From Centipeda felix (lineage in GTDB: Bacteria; Bacillota; Negativicutes; Selenomonadales; Selenomonadaceae), in assembly GCF_900186465.1 (NCBI RefSeq), contig NZ_LT891958.1, positions 1 through 64,000 of the forward strand: a stretch of 64,000 bases of DNA, given 5' to 3'. Numbering within the stretch: position 1 is the first letter of the stretch; each line of letters begins with the position of its first letter. The notes beneath the pieces are model-generated. The model had not been told where the DNA came from, made no database searches, and saw only the letters and a list, made by a program, of their open reading frames with translations. Positions 38,627-56,100 of this stretch are shown piece after piece. A program made the translations under genes and the position numbers.

Positions 38627-38989
38627 ATGGCTGTAAAGTATGAAGTCAGTGTGACTGCCATCGGCAAACTGGCGCGCAAATTCCTCGAGACCAACAGCAG
38701 CATTATCCTGCTGGACGAGGGAGCACACCCCAATCTCGCCGAGATGGTCATTGAGCACACATCAGGCGATCTGAAGAGCGACATCACCGTCGGAGATACG
38801 CTGACGTTTGGAAAGCAGAAATATAAGGTCACACGCGTCGGTGAGAACGCAAATGACACGATCCGCGACAGCGGGCACTGCACGCTGCTCTTTAACACAA
38901 CAGGCTCTATGCCAGGGCAGATCGAACTGGAGGGCGGTCCCGTACCTCCGATCTCAGTGGGACTGAAGTTTTCCTTCTCCGGGAAATAA
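38627..38989 (+). CDS. Glucitol/sorbitol-type PTS EIIA component (SrlB family), orphan
   Basis: A 120-residue single-domain protein matching the Gut-type EIIA fold: a central ILLDEGAHPNLAEMVIEHT containing candidate phosphoryl His residues, then GDTLTFGKQKYKVTRVGENANDTI and TTGSMPGQIELEGGP. No EIIBC for sorbitol is present; its neighbour is the divergent sucrose PTS. Orphan EIIA-Gut proteins may phosphorylate partners encoded elsewhere or act in regulation. It has its own promoter and terminator. Confidence 0.82.
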   Translation: MAVKYEVSVTAIGKLARKFLETNSSIILLDEGAHPNLAEMVIEHTSGDLKSDITVGDTLTFGKQKYKVTRVGENANDTIRDSGHCTLLFNTTGSMPGQIELEGGPVPPISVGLKFSFSGK

Positions 38990-39004
38990 AACCAAAGAAA
39001 CTGT

Positions 39005-39041
39005 GAGAGCCAGATCAACTGTAATGCACTCTGGCTCTTTT
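39005..39041 (+). terminator. Terminator after the orphan EIIA gene
   Basis: AGAGCCAGA and TCTGGCTCT pair around a loop and are followed by TTTTCTG. Confidence 0.85.
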
Positions 39042-39068
39042 CTGTACGCACAATGAAAGAGAATATCC

Positions 39069-39746
39069 ATGAAAAAAATTCTCGCCGTATTGCTTGCCGC
39101 GCTGCTTCTTCTCACGCTCGGCTGCGGGAGTAAAAATACGGCAGCCGACGACGCAGAGGAAGATCATGCTGCCCTCGACCTCTCTCAACCGCTGAAGCCC
39201 CCTGCTTCCTTTGAAGGAAAACGCGTGCTCGTTGCATTCTTCTCGCGCGCAGGGGAAAACCACGAAGTTGGCTACGTCGAAAAGGGAAACACGGCGCTCC
39301 TTGCTGAGCAGCTTGCAGAGCTTATCCATGCGGATGCCACGTTCGAGATACAGACTGTCATCCCCTACCCGATCGACCTCAAGGAGATGACAGAGGTGGC
39401 AAAAGAGGAGCAATCCAAACAGGCGCGCCCGCTGCTCGCATCAAAATTCGATGATATGGCGCAGTACGACATCATCTTCCTCGGCTATCCGATCTGGTAC
39501 CAGGATCTACCGATGCCGATCTACACCTTCCTTGAGAGCTATGACTTCGCAGATAAGGTCATCATCCCATTCTCCACCGGATCGGGCAATGCAATGAGCG
39601 GCAAAGAGGCGGATATCCCGAACTATGCCAAGGGCGCGGCGGCGTTTCCGGGGATGTGCATCCGCGGCAAGACGGTGCGTGACAATGCGACAGAGACAAA
39701 TAAGCACATTGCCGTCTGGCTGGAGGGATTGGGGTACCACAACTGA
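39069..39746 (+). CDS. Flavodoxin-like lipoprotein
   Basis: A 225-residue protein with a lipoprotein signal (lipobox LLTLGC, Cys about residue 19) followed by a flavodoxin domain. FMN-loop candidates are VAFFSRAGENHEVGYVEKGNTALLAEQLAE, IIFLGYPIWYQDLPMPIYTFLESYDF and IPFSTGSGNAMSG. A flavodoxin on the outer side of the membrane is unusual since most are cytoplasmic. Its stop overlaps the start of a DUF4405 membrane gene (TGATG), which suggests that the two proteins act together in electron transfer. Function is inferred. Confidence 0.88.
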   Translation: MKKILAVLLAALLLLTLGCGSKNTAADDAEEDHAALDLSQPLKPPASFEGKRVLVAFFSRAGENHEVGYVEKGNTALLAEQLAELIHADATFEIQTVIPYPIDLKEMTEVAKEEQSKQARPLLASKFDDMAQYDIIFLGYPIWYQDLPMPIYTFLESYDFADKVIIPFSTGSGNAMSGKEADIPNYAKGAAAFPGMCIRGKTVRDNATETNKHIAVWLEGLGYHN

Positions 39747-40384
39747 TGCGCCCCCTGCTCTTTGTCCTCATCACGCTCCTCATGTTCTTTCTGCCAAACC
39801 GTTTGCTGACGACGGAGCCCGTGCATGAGTATCTGGGCTGTGCCCTTCTCATCCTCGGCGGCATCCACCTGTGGCTCGAGCGCGCCTATCTTCGCGCGCT
39901 CTTTTGGCGGCGCCTGCCGATGACGGCACTCAACACGGTGAACATCATCATGCTCCTGCTCCTTGCCGTGACCTTGGTATCGGGCATACTCATCTCCCTC
40001 TACGCTCTTCCCATTGTGCGTCTGCGCGGGCTCGCATCCATCTACGTCCACGCAGTCCACCTCTCTGCCGGTGTGCTGCTCTTTCTCGTCGTTGGCGTGC
40101 ATGTCGGTCTGCATGCCCGCATGCTGTGGAGAGCTCTGCTGCGCCGTATCCCGCTGCGTATCCCACGGACGATGCCACGCGTTCTATATGTCGTCGGTAT
40201 TCTTTTGACGGCAGCAGGCATTCACCGCTTTATCACGACGCGCATCTACGACAAGATCCTCTTTGAACATCTATCATTTGGCGGACTTACGGGAACATGG
40301 ACATACCAGTGCGACCTGCTCCTCATGTTCCTTGCCTGCGCATGCCTCGCCATCTTCTATCAGTCATGGCGCATGCGGAAATAA
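39746..40384 (+). CDS. DUF4405-like membrane protein, possible b-type heme carrier
   Basis: A 212-residue protein with about six membrane segments and a set of histidines within or near them (27, 41, 102, 105, 119, 123, 160, 175), as expected for bis-His heme binding. The pattern GILISLYALPIVRLRGLASIY followed by VHAVHLSAG resembles DUF4405. Translational coupling with the lipoprotein flavodoxin points to a quinone/heme-to-flavin electron path across the membrane. A part of this gene recurs, slightly altered, within pilT near 42.75 kb. Confidence 0.75.
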   Translation: MRPLLFVLITLLMFFLPNRLLTTEPVHEYLGCALLILGGIHLWLERAYLRALFWRRLPMTALNTVNIIMLLLLAVTLVSGILISLYALPIVRLRGLASIYVHAVHLSAGVLLFLVVGVHVGLHARMLWRALLRRIPLRIPRTMPRVLYVVGILLTAAGIHRFITTRIYDKILFEHLSFGGLTGTWTYQCDLLLMFLACACLAIFYQSWRMRK

Positions 40385-40388
40385 AAAT

Positions 40389-40429
40389 AAAAAGACGCTT
40401 TTCACTATACTGTGAGAAGCGTCTTTTTG
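40389..40429. terminator. Terminator after the DUF4405 gene
   Basis: AAAAAGACGCTTTTCAC and GTGAGAAGCGTCTTTTT form a long stem around TATACT with A/T tracts on both sides. Confidence 0.92.
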
Positions 40430-40495
40430 TATAAAGAAAACCACGCGATAGTCGCGTGGTTGGAAAGAGCTTAAGCGGTGAACAGAAAATCCCCA

Positions 40496-40604
40496 GTGTG
40501 CTAAACTATGCGTAAGCCTGCCAGCCTAAAAATAGTGAAGACACTAGGGAGGAAACAGCACTATGTCGAAACAACAAAATGCCGATACGCATAGTTTAGC
40601 ACAC
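40496..40604 (+). promoter_or_regulatory. Perfect 19-bp stem enclosing the tnpA ribosome site and start codon
   Basis: GTGTGCTAAACTATGCGTA (40496-40514) is exactly complementary to TACGCATAGTTTAGCACAC (40586-40604). The loop contains GGGAGG and the tnpA ATG. Such a structure in the mRNA should limit translation of the transposase, as is known for IS200 elements. Confidence 0.8.
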
Positions 40605-42397: not shown

Positions 42398-43508
42398 GCG
42401 AGGACGCCCCGTGCACGAAGCTCGGCCTCTGCCATCTCCGCCGTCTGCATCCCCTGCGCAGCACCGCTCATCATGAGCGTCTCAAGCTGATCATAGCGTC
42501 CCTGCCGCAGGACATTTCGCACGGCGGAGGTACCAACCAGCGTCTCAAACGCGGCAATACGGCCGCCGCCCCGCCGCGGCAGAAGGCGCTGAGCAAAGAT
42601 GCCGCGGACGACATCGGCAAACTGTGCGCGCACCGCATCCCGCGCATCCGCCGGAAAGAAACTCTCCACGCGGCGCGCCGCCTGCGCGGCCGTCCCCGCG
42701 TGGATTGTAGATGGGGATAAGAGACAGCCTCTACGCACTTCCCATTGTGCGTCTGCGCGGGCTCGCATCCATCTACGTGCCCGCTGTACACGACAGGACG
42801 ACCAAAGAGAGCAGCCGGTCTCATGAGCTCAAAGAGATGTTTCGCCGCGAGGAGTGTCGCCTCAATGGTTGCACGGTCACGGATCTCACCCACGAGCAGG
42901 AGGTCGGGATCCTCACGCAGCGCACTGCGCACAGCATCGGGAAAGGAAGCAAAATCCCGCCCCTCTTCCCGCTGACTGAAAAAGGCACGATCTGCGGCAA
43001 AAACATATTCGACGGGATCCTCAAGTGTGATGATATGGAGGGAACGCGTATGGTTGACCGCATCAATGAGCGCGGCAAGCGTTGTCGTCTTGCCTGCCCC
43101 CGTCGCTCCGCAGAGCAGTACGAGTCCATCCCTCATCTCAAGAGCCGTACGCACGGCAGACGGCATACCGACCTCATCGGGCGTCATGATGCGCTCAGGC
43201 AGGAGACGCAGGGAAAGAGCCATCCCCTCCTGCGTTCGATAAAAGTTTCCTCGAAACCGCCGTCCCTCCCAGTTCCACGCGGCATCGACATCCTGCACAG
43301 AAAGAAGAGCGCGCTGCGCATCCGAGAGCATTTGACAGGCACACGCCTCCATCAGTGCCGCTGTGGGAATGAGATCCTCCGCCATCAGCATGCCGTCACG
43401 GCGCAGCTGTATCTGCTGATGCGGTGCCGCATGGAGATCCGAGGCATTCACTGTCATCATGCGGCGCAGCAGTTCCTGCCACGCGTCCGTTTCATCCATA
43501 GAGTGCAC
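42394..43508 (-). pseudogene. pilT: Type IV pilus retraction ATPase PilT, interrupted (probably by an assembly chimera)
   Basis: Residues from 43508 to about 42839 give a normal PilT N-part: SDLHAAPHQQIQLRRDG, Walker A LLCGATGAGKTTTLAAL, ITLEDPVEYVFA, and VGEIRDRATIEATLLAAK (Walker B side). The frame then reads nonsense for about 130 nt. The C-terminal part resumes in another frame at about 42708 with TIHAGTAAQAARRVESFFPADARD and runs to 42394. About eight family residues between AAK and TIHAG are missing, so the block replaces a short true segment. It overlaps pilB by 17 nt. Confidence 0.85.
42709..42838. other. Foreign block in pilT: mosaic-end-like 19-mer plus copied DUF4405 sequence
   Basis: 42709-42727 reads AGATGGGGATAAGAGACAG, differing from the Tn5/Nextera mosaic end AGATGTGTATAAGAGACAG at two positions. 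From 42728 for about 55 nt the sequence nearly repeats 40000-40054 in the DUF4405 gene, with about three differences. The remaining piece to about 42838 is of unknown origin. I interpret it as library or assembly chimerism. Confidence 0.8.
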
Positions 43509-53969: not shown

Positions 53970-54458
53970 TCAGATCCCAAGCGCCGCGACCCATGAGTTG
54001 ATCGCCATCGGGGTCTCGCCCATCTCAAAGCGGCGGCCTTCCTTGACGAGTGCGCCCTGCGCTGAGGGGCGCAGATGCGTCACCGTCTGCCCGAGGGAGC
54101 TGCCGCCCGAGGTAGCAAACGGCACAATGGTTTTCCCCGTAAGGTCGTAGCTTTCGAGAAATGTATTGATGATGTGCGGCGCAGCGAACCACCAGAGCGG
54201 GAACCCGACGAAGATGGTCTCATACGGCGCGAGATCGGGAAGCTCTCCCTCGATCTGGGGGCGGCAGGCTGGGTCGTGCATCTCAACGTTGACGCGGCTC
54301 GTCTTATCGTCCCAGTCGAGATCGTCCTCGGTATAGGGGATGACCGGGCGGATCTCGTAAAGGTCTGCGCCGATGACGTCGGCGATCTTATGGGCAACCG
54401 TTGCCGTGCGCCGCGAAGGTGATGCAGAAAAGAAGGCGATCATCCGTTTTCCGTACAT
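53970..54458 (-). CDS. Flavodoxin family protein
   Basis: A 162-residue flavodoxin without a signal peptide: IAFFSASPSRRTATVAHKIADVI (phosphate loop), YETIFVGFPLWWFAAPHIINTFLESYD and VPFATSGGSSLGQT. It is similar to the flavodoxin part of the lipoprotein at 39 kb but cytoplasmic. The start at 54458 has GGAAGGAAGG before it. It follows the DUF4127 gene by one nt. Confidence 0.92.
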   Translation of the reverse strand: MYGKRMIAFFSASPSRRTATVAHKIADVIGADLYEIRPVIPYTEDDLDWDDKTSRVNVEMHDPACRPQIEGELPDLAPYETIFVGFPLWWFAAPHIINTFLESYDLTGKTIVPFATSGGSSLGQTVTHLRPSAQGALVKEGRRFEMGETPMAINSWVAALGI

Positions 54459-54459
54459 A

Positions 54460-56100
54460 TTATTTCCTTCCTTCCAAATAATCATGGGCAAAGCCCTGCT
54501 GCTCGGGCTGAATGTCCGCCTCAAACATACGGTTCCACGGGAATGTCACGACGACACTGTTCATCTCCGCCATGGGCGGCAGATTGTTCTCGATGAAGCG
54601 GTTCATCATGCGCGTGGAGCGCACGGAGACGGCATCCATCTTTGAGCCGAGACTGCCGTAGAATCCGTCACCGCGCAGCCACGTGAGCTGCCGTGCAATC
54701 GTATTGCGCACATTCGCCTGATACGCCCAGTCGTCGAGGTAGCGCGTCGTCAGCAGCTGGTCGACGGCGTCCGCATTCATGTGACGGACGAGCATCCCCT
54801 CGCCGAGCGCATAGCCCGAGCTGTTCGTCGGGGTGTTCCACCCTGCATAGGCACGAATCTTGTAGAGCAGACCGCGCCGCTGCAGCTCCGCCATGAGCGC
54901 GTTGTCCGCGCCGTTGGCAAAGGCAACGTCGGCAATCGAGACGGGATAGCCTCGTGCCACATAGTCCGACACGATATCGGCAAAATACGCCGTCCCCTCG
55001 CGCAGCGTTCCGTCATTGACGGGCATATTCGCCTCGTAGGTGCGCCCGTCGGGGTTCGTATTCACCGTGAGGACGACATCCGCCTTCTCCGGCGCGCGCA
55101 CATTCATCCCACCGGCGGCGAGAATCGCATCGTTGATCGAGGTGCCGATCTTCTCATCCGAGTACGCAGGCACAGTGTCCGCGCCGCGTCCCCAGTTGTA
55201 GCGGACGAAGACAAACGGCACCTCATGACGCTGCTCGTTCACTGCGCGCGTCAGCATGAGGAGGGCGATCTCGTCGATGCCTGCCATCGTCTGAAACCGA
55301 GTCTTGCCGAGCTCTGCGCCTACTGCCGCGAGATGCCGGCTCTCAAGATGGGTCTGGGAGAACGGCGCATTATCATCACGCCCGAGCGCGAGGTAGTGGA
55401 ACGTCCCATTCTTGCGCATGAGATTGATGAGGAACTCGTTGACCGCATAGTTCTTCTCGCGTCGTCCCATCCAGTCCGTGAGGGCTTCCTTCGGGATGAG
55501 GCGCGTGAGGAACTCATACTCCTTGCGCTCACGGCGCGAGAGCCCCTCGACCTCCTCCTTGTCACGCAGGAGGGTGTAGCGGAAGATATCCGCCCCATAG
55601 CGGCGGTAGTACTCCGGCTCCTCATGTCCCGATGCCTCGCCCGTACGCGGCGTGCGCATGATCGAGCCAAAGACGTAGAGCGGCACCTTGGGATTCGCAC
55701 GGTGCAGCTCCGTAAAGCGCGACGCGCGTGCGAGGATCTGTGCACGCGACTCGTTGTGCTTGCGCGAGCCGACGAGGCTGCCGTAGACCATCGCATCCGA
55801 GGAGATAACCGCTGCCTTGACACCGGGCTGTGCGATATTCTCGTGCACCCATGTCCAGAGCTGATCGGGATGTCCCAGATTCTCACGGCTGCCGAGCAGC
55901 TCGGTCGGCGGAACGACGACCTCGTAGCCTGCCTTGGTTACGACATCCGCCGTCTGCGTACTCGAGATCGGGCGGCTGTCATGCGGGATGAAGATGATCT
56001 TCTCCGTCACGGGTTCCGCCTTTGCCGCGTCCGCCGCCTGCGGCTGGATCCATACGGTGAGCATCGCGATACAGAGCAGCTGAATCAATCGCCTCATCAA
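54460..56100 (-). CDS. DUF4127 family protein, exported
   Basis: A 546-residue protein with an N-terminal signal peptide (MMRRLIQLLCIAMLTVWIQ, cleavage near AADAA). It has the DUF4127 layout, opening with IIFIPHDSRPISSTQTADVV and continuing KAAVISSDAMVYGSLVGSRKHNES and FVRYNWGRGADTVPAYSDEKIG. The function of the family is not known; the fold is thought to be phosphoesterase or glycosidase-like. It overlaps the preceding unknown gene by 4 nt (ATGA). Confidence 0.85.
   Translation of the reverse strand: MMRRLIQLLCIAMLTVWIQPQAADAAKAEPVTEKIIFIPHDSRPISSTQTADVVTKAGYEVVVPPTELLGSRENLGHPDQLWTWVHENIAQPGVKAAVISSDAMVYGSLVGSRKHNESRAQILARASRFTELHRANPKVPLYVFGSIMRTPRTGEASGHEEPEYYRRYGADIFRYTLLRDKEEVEGLSRRERKEYEFLTRLIPKEALTDWMGRREKNYAVNEFLINLMRKNGTFHYLALGRDDNAPFSQTHLESRHLAAVGAELGKTRFQTMAGIDEIALLMLTRAVNEQRHEVPFVFVRYNWGRGADTVPAYSDEKIGTSINDAILAAGGMNVRAPEKADVVLTVNTNPDGRTYEANMPVNDGTLREGTAYFADIVSDYVARGYPVSIADVAFANGADNALMAELQRRGLLYKIRAYAGWNTPTNSSGYALGEGMLVRHMNADAVDQLLTTRYLDDWAYQANVRNTIARQLTWLRGDGFYGSLGSKMDAVSVRSTRMMNRFIENNLPPMAEMNSVVVTFPWNRMFEADIQPEQQGFAHDYLEGRK

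Follow-up and report, generated by a model that had tools for sequence, protein, structure and literature searches.

A lipoprotein flavodoxin encoded with a DUF4405 membrane protein in Centipeda felix: a candidate ApbE-independent electron relay across the cytoplasmic membrane

The closest described relatives of the gene pair considered here are the clusters reported by Huang, Meheust, Barquera and Light (2024; PMC11334425). In the available sections of that paper, DUF4405 is a heme-b cytochrome that is clustered with apbE and with an ApbE-flavinylated Flavodoxin_4 protein. A heme-b spectrum is published there for the DUF4405 protein of an Oscillospiraceae relative, and covalent FMN is reported in other members of Flavodoxin_4. 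ApbE flavinylation is proposed mainly to prevent the loss of flavin outside the cell, and the Discussion sets flavinylated extracytosolic flavodoxins against unflavinylated cytosolic ones. The same sections liken DUF4405 to MsrQ and PepSY-type cytochromes, which share with the present locus a heme membrane protein tied to an extracytoplasmic redox partner; here that partner is a flavodoxin. In archaea, arCOG04002/DUF4405 is predicted to be a member of the cytochrome b family in the available part of PMC5898192 where, unlike the present locus, no flavodoxin pairing is mentioned.

The pair lies within the first 64,000 nucleotides of contig NZ_LT891958.1 of the Centipeda felix assembly GCF_900186465.1, a stretch referred to below as the window. 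As the first-pass annotation had described, two open reading frames share a TGATG overlap of stop and start codons. In common with the clusters of PMC11334425, as far as these are described in the sections available, the locus has both Pfam families, an extracytosolic flavodoxin, and a six-helix DUF4405 protein with four central histidines; it differs in having neither a flavinylation motif nor a neighbouring apbE. The features of the locus are collected in Table 1.

Table 1. Features of the flavodoxin/DUF4405 locus, with positions in the window and the evidence for each assignment.
Feature	Position	Strand	Basis
Lipoprotein Flavodoxin_4 gene, 225 aa, no flavinylation motif	39069..39746	+	ORF and Pfam
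DUF4405 membrane protein gene, 212 aa, six predicted helices, N-in/C-in	39746..40384	+	ORF, Pfam, model, positive-inside rule
TGATG stop/start overlap of the flavodoxin and DUF4405 genes	39744..39748	+	Sequence
Signal peptide with lipobox, acceptor Cys19 (codon 39123-39125)	39069..39125	+	Sequence, lipobox test
beta1-alpha1 loop S59-T75 (SRAGENHEVGYVEKGNT), short hairpin	39243..39293	+	Alignment A5, model strands 62-64 and 68-70
His27 codon, predicted outer-heme ligand (with H105)	39824..39826	+	Invariant; side predicted from topology
His41 codon, predicted inner-heme ligand (with H119)	39866..39868	+	Invariant; predicted side
His105 codon, predicted outer-heme ligand	40058..40060	+	Invariant; predicted side
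His119 codon, predicted inner-heme ligand	40100..40102	+	Invariant; predicted side
Terminator-like hairpin between the upstream PTSIIA_gutA gene and the pair	38995..39048	+	Fold z -2.4
Strong hairpin 3' of the pair, probable transcription terminator	40384..40432	+	Fold -27.3 kcal/mol, z -10.6
Cytosolic Flavodoxin_4 paralogue, possible redox partner on the cytosolic side	53970..54524	-	Partnership suggested by gene order elsewhere

The pair is preceded by a PTSIIA_gutA gene (38627-38989) and followed by an IS200-like transposase gene at 40563. A consensus terminator scan lists neither of the hairpins in Table 1, and the upstream one is therefore graded as weak; 6 of 200 shuffled sequences fold equally well. 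Flanked by a weak 5' hairpin and a strong 3' hairpin, the pair may form its own transcription unit. A separate oddity is found at 42709-42791, where 19 bases match the Nextera transposon end (2 mismatches; 0.01 expected) and a 64-base segment after them repeats positions 39997-40060 of the DUF4405 gene at 92%. Both pieces lie inside a truncated T2SSE/pilT-like open reading frame (42471-43508), and the arrangement is most likely a library or assembly chimera and not biology.

The membrane protein belongs to DUF4405 (PF14358) with a score of 30.1 bits against a cut-off of 26.7. Its AlphaFold model (pLDDT = 78.5) and its loop charges fit six helices with both ends inside: lysine and arginine number 4 and 5 in the cytosolic loops and 3 at the C-terminus, and 0, 2 and 2 in the outer loops. 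Simple hydropathy gave five helices, and it also undercounts in several separately encoded DUF4405 proteins. The first-pass annotation had counted eight histidines placed for heme binding. There are exactly eight (27, 41, 102, 105, 119, 123, 160 and 175); however, only H27, H41, H105 and H119 are invariant in both of two alignments (24/24 and 15/15 rows, with the window sequence in each), so that these four are the likely ligands and the proposal that all eight bind heme was rejected. Helix 2 carries H27 and H41 and helix 4 carries H105 and H119, the two members of each pair being 14 residues apart. This is the spacing found in di-heme cytochromes b. The DUF4405 protein of the window is thus, from its conserved residues, a probable heme membrane protein.

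Comparison of the model with the PDB placed two cytochromes b highest, hydrogenase-1 cytochrome b (4gd3_A, Z 9.2, rmsd 3.5, 117 residues aligned) at the top and formate dehydrogenase N (1kqf_C, Z 9.1, rmsd 2.6, 125 residues aligned), with TRP channels scoring close to them at Z 8.0-8.6. Foldseek returned no match at E 0.001 or better, an absence that is uninformative. Neither the fold searches nor the sequence searches produced a decisive solved relative.

The flavodoxin is a member of Flavodoxin_4 (PF12682; E 9.8e-25, 87.3 bits against a cut-off of 24) with an AlphaFold model of pLDDT = 87.7. Its amino terminus, MKKILAVLLAALLLLTLGC, passes a lipobox test for which a pattern was written on the model of the lipobox rule as generally known. 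The signal ends in LTLGC, where the threonine at position -3 is unusual; the corresponding lipobox reads AIGC in an orthologue of the same genus and FSAC in the orthologue of G040. The signal peptide and the acceptor Cys19 are retained by the two closest orthologues, which are 60% and 46% identical. Among named records, the test was passed by 52 of the 80 best relatives compared with 28 of 847 other open reading frames at the same loci.

Export was then read at 31 loci where the two genes are not fused, one per genome, within 61 genomes of the same family. An export signal is present at 28: by script, 14 have a lipobox, six a Tat signal with a lipobox (for example MNRREFLK...GGC) and six a signal peptide or anchor, and to these 26 the window and G017 were added by eye. 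The 28 include a DUF4405 remnant (G037), a flavodoxin frame split in two (G054) and a short DUF4405 form of 133 residues (G040). The other three flavodoxins (L039, L041 and L047) look cytosolic or have no readable signal and were scored as not exported. Fused proteins from the same family bear on the same point. They share both domains with the window pair, and since the flavodoxin is placed after the region of the fifth DUF4405 helix it is probably outside. A five-helix DUF4405 is likely in these fusions, although the hydropathy count is five in six of the nine and four in the remaining three. Based on the orthologue export signals and the position of the flavodoxin in the fusions, a cytosolic location was rejected; the exported lipobox flavodoxin of the first-pass annotation is supported, with lipidation as a prediction.

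Co-occurrence of the two genes, which the same annotation had proposed as a check, is extensive, contrary to the absent conservation that it had named as a ground for refutation. Of the 61 family genomes, Flavodoxin_4 is found in 53 and PF14358 in 55, 44 of them over the cut-off; matches below it probably include other cytochrome b families, and a table in the available part of PMC12727194 lists proteins that match both PF14358 and such families. A pair on the same strand and no more than 3 kb apart occurs in 36 of the 61, a count that takes in the G037 remnant and eight extra DUF4405-like places. Narrowing the distance to 1 kb leaves 44 rows, spread over 34 genomes and with some pairs counted twice, where a rough calculation from approximate counts gives about 0.2 by chance. 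The separate, exported form with no flavinylation motif accounts for 28 of the 61 genomes.

The pair also recurs in other families. Among 299 genomes of the same phylum, 25 match the DUF4405 alignment (A3), at 27 places in all; 10 of these, counting the window's own, have a flavodoxin reading frame within about 1.5 kb on either side. The three best-scoring genomes outside the family (G122, G151 and G350) each have Flavodoxin_4 genes in the DUF4405 cluster; two flavodoxins lie near the DUF4405 gene of G122 on a wider read, and the DUF4405 of G350 scores 25.9 bits, just below the Pfam cut-off. In named records, DUF4405 lies within 3 kb of 15 of the 80 best flavodoxin relatives, a count affected by truncated loci and by a family-biased search profile. 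The pair is found in Ruminococcus albus, two Eggerthellaceae, an Erysipelotrichaceae MAG and Treponema parvum, where the genes are 2.8 kb apart.

An obligate partnership was rejected since either gene stands alone in some relatives, as the 15 of 80 also indicates. The same-genus G037 locus has the TGATG overlap and, by eye, the neighbours of the window, with an intact lipoprotein flavodoxin and only the two ends of DUF4405 left by an internal deletion (L040, 4000-4270), which may be genuine or an assembly error. Two other genomes of the genus (G008 and G056) have lipoprotein flavodoxins and no DUF4405 over the cut-off. Conversely, the good DUF4405 of G007, in the same family (175 bits against A3), has no flavodoxin in the 11 kb read around it. 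The Centipeda felix genome encodes lipoprotein flavodoxins at two further places, and the 7 kb read around each contains no DUF4405; other partners are thus possible. Lipoprotein flavodoxins at L072 (3125-3790, C17) and L073 (3249-3914, C15) of this genome are identical at all but one of the 130 residues compared, and the same type is present in G056 (L078). By eye, the neighbours of L072 are aldo/keto reductase-like and exported hydrolase-like frames, without DUF4405.

A set of twelve larger and lower-scoring DUF4405 proteins may be considered apart. In their open frames of 256-420 aa (L169, L170, L172-L177 and L179-L182), the outer loop leading into the last helix is long, with a cysteine-rich CxGCxxxC in five, and no flavodoxin was found within about 1.5 kb on either side. 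On their sequences, these are assigned to a different DUF4405 subfamily.

Taken together, the data favor, with a probability of roughly 0.6, a reading of the pair as an electron relay across the membrane that works without ApbE, with two b hemes and a non-covalent FMN outside. Helices 2 and 4 of DUF4405 would hold two b-type hemes between them, one close to either face of the cytoplasmic membrane, and electrons would cross by way of these hemes. The outer heme would exchange electrons with a non-covalent FMN in the lipid-anchored flavodoxin, which would in turn serve one or more extracytoplasmic acceptors. Selenomonadaceae have an outer membrane; if Centipeda felix is a diderm Selenomonad, the flavodoxin would sit in the periplasm. 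On the cytosolic side, a cytosolic flavodoxin is at least as plausible a donor as menaquinol. The number and sides of the hemes, the FMN in this protein, the contact between the two proteins and the direction of the electrons are all inferred from sequence and models.

The related cytoplasmic flavodoxin noted in the first-pass annotation was confirmed, its product being 34% identical to the exported one over 177 residues. It lies 14 kb from the pair and might be a donor as well as a relative, since a few other genomes have such a gene directly beside the pair. In two genomes of the family (G053 and G060, which have apbE elsewhere) and in G151 of another family, genes for a lipoprotein flavodoxin, DUF4405 and a cytosolic flavodoxin are adjacent in that order; in G051 a stretch of about 4 kb contains all three, and the DUF4405 gene of G002 has only a cytosolic flavodoxin gene next to it. 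With three adjacent cases and one loose one, the gene order is suggestive of a flavodoxin-to-flavodoxin relay. Directly upstream of the three-gene set of G151, a lipobox-like DUF362 protein and an ArsP-type permease are encoded (L189, 2759-4808).

In G350, two lipoprotein flavodoxins, an SLH-flavodoxin and DUF4405 are arranged in tandem. In the SLH-flavodoxin (L188, 4823-5950), Flavodoxin_4 is fused to three SLH domains and the N-terminus is signal-like; judging by these domains, the protein is probably wall-bound. Its flavodoxin domain shares 144 of 145 residues with the domain of one of the neighbouring lipoproteins, and so represents a recent copy on a wall-binding module. A full ApbE-free route, from a cytosolic flavodoxin through a di-heme DUF4405 to the lipid-anchored flavodoxin, continued in one or more genomes to an SLH wall flavodoxin, is a tentative extension that is put forward with less than even confidence. 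If true, flavodoxins would shuttle electrons to one another across the membrane via one cytochrome, and FMN would be held outside by tight non-covalent binding or, for the Tat-lipobox variants, alternatively be carried out by Tat export of the folded holoprotein.

The first-pass annotation had named menaquinol as the electron source, and in one alternative DUF4405 oxidises menaquinol while the flavodoxin reduces extracytoplasmic substrates, as in MsrPQ. The Centipeda felix genome has both MqnC and a PF02621 gene, and MsrQ-like structures are likened to DUF4405 in the available sections of PMC11334425. Across the 61 family genomes, MqnC is over the cut-off in 35 and PF02621 is present in 37; MenD is over it in none, with G014, G016 and G043 coming near. 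Scavenging of quinones is conceivable. MqnA and MqnD are both presumed to match PF02621, and as it occurs once per genome, the menaquinone call is a marker count and not a reconstructed pathway. The pair is present in 15 of the 24 genomes that lack both markers compared with 19 of the 35 that have both, and in each of the two with PF02621 only. Since it is about equally common with and without futalosine genes, menaquinol is seemingly not required generally. As a general donor it is thus unsupported, and as the donor in this organism, where both markers are present, it is possible; the menaquinol-driven reading as a whole is doubtful.

About as doubtful is the reading of the exported flavodoxin as an enzyme, a quinone, azo or electrophile reductase of a detoxification cluster, to which DUF4405 would feed electrons in some species. 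Neighbours read by eye at 121 clustered loci include aldo/keto reductase-like frames in 35, LysR in 24, short-chain dehydrogenases in 19 and exported DUF362 proteins in 13, one of the last being confirmed by Pfam; the window pair, however, has no such neighbours.

The reading closest to the published system is that flavin is attached at a non-canonical site by a distant ApbE. In motif-bearing relatives, SGAS or AGAS lies in the beta1-alpha1 loop; at this place the window flavodoxin has a short GENHEVGYVEK hairpin and no flavinylation motif, even with a relaxed pattern, which was used because a stricter one misses the AGAS form of G122. Hidden flavinylation was rejected on this search and on the loop alignment (A5). 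The relaxed pattern also found the loop motif in none of the unfused flavodoxins among 48 flavodoxin frames of the family regions, and in only one of 129 from named records (the second flavodoxin of L144), a biased count since those records were found with motif-free queries. Further matches off the fold, in L038 and L050 of the family and in four named records, are in linkers that precede it. In contrast, all nine intact DUF4405-flavodoxin fusions carry DAVSGAS in the loop.

A match to apbE is present in 32 of the 61 family genomes. All nine with the fused form are positive (hypergeometric p 0.0016); the fusions differ from the window pair in being fused, in bearing the motif and in occurring in apbE-positive genomes only. 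Of the 28 genomes with the separate exported form, 15 have apbE and 13 lack a match (Fisher p 1.0), and completeness is 99% or more for nine of these 13. In six genomes with this form, apbE is missing together with both futalosine markers, and three of these (G006, G009 and G035) are listed as 100% complete. Within the 61 genomes, the separate exported form is therefore associated neither with apbE nor with futalosine-pathway genes.

In a tree, the fused form is one clade with support of 100/100 and a long stem; the window is on a long branch (1.77) with a warning of long-branch joining, and positions are unsure. The tree was calculated without rows for L040, L059 and L069, the last a degenerate fusion copy outside the nine, and with fused rows cut to their first 185 residues. 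Alignment A4 took 40 of the 80 named-record loci and omitted L101, which has a stop codon in the stretch.

Beside the window pair there is no apbE. The only matches in the genome (C16:482875-484036) are about 440 kb away on the contig and broken in the assembly, and neither G151 nor G350 has a match. A distant ApbE acting here is accordingly improbable, even though the genome has apbE matches and G122 combines motif-bearing lipoprotein flavodoxins, DUF4405 and an adjacent apbE in one cluster. With no motif and no neighbouring apbE, non-covalent FMN is expected in the window flavodoxin. As for the broken gene itself (L075 2834-4229, G000:C16, about 482.8-484.2 kb), its N-terminus is lipobox-like, and it is interrupted by a run with an unknown base and a piece that by eye resembles a prepilin. 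The split is probably another misassembly.

The solved folds nearest to the flavodoxin model are 4ici, 3klb and 4j8p. Across 41 aligned rows, there is no variation at S59 or G73 and almost none at N74 and T75, residues that are assumed to bind the FMN phosphate as in flavodoxins generally. From these loop residues and the FMN-bound relative 3klb, FMN binding is predicted for the window protein. That the fold binds heme instead and the pair handles heme at the membrane is very improbable, since heme-bound FldH of Fusobacterium nucleatum (8g64) is a structural match at rank 13 only, the closest solved relatives score far better and include the FMN complex, and the FMN-loop residues are conserved.

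The first-pass annotation had presented the pair as a two-gene module not previously seen described. That claim holds in part: the ApbE-flavinylated form is in print in the available sections of PMC11334425, and the motif-free form lacking apbE differs from it. No description of an unflavinylated exported flavodoxin/DUF4405 pair was found in the accessible portion of the open-licence literature. Judged by its sequence, the window type is classed as an unflavinylated branch of extracytosolic flavodoxins. What is apparently new is a motif-free and seemingly ApbE-independent exported flavodoxin together with a DUF4405 cytochrome. As this form is common in the family, the published contrast between extracytosolic and cytosolic flavodoxins is too broad. 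The motif-free exported flavodoxins, some of them in near-complete genomes without apbE, offer a natural control for the flavin-loss idea: either FMN can stay bound outside without a covalent link, or these flavodoxins have another means of being loaded and protected. One relay now has matched flavinylated and unflavinylated versions that may be compared.
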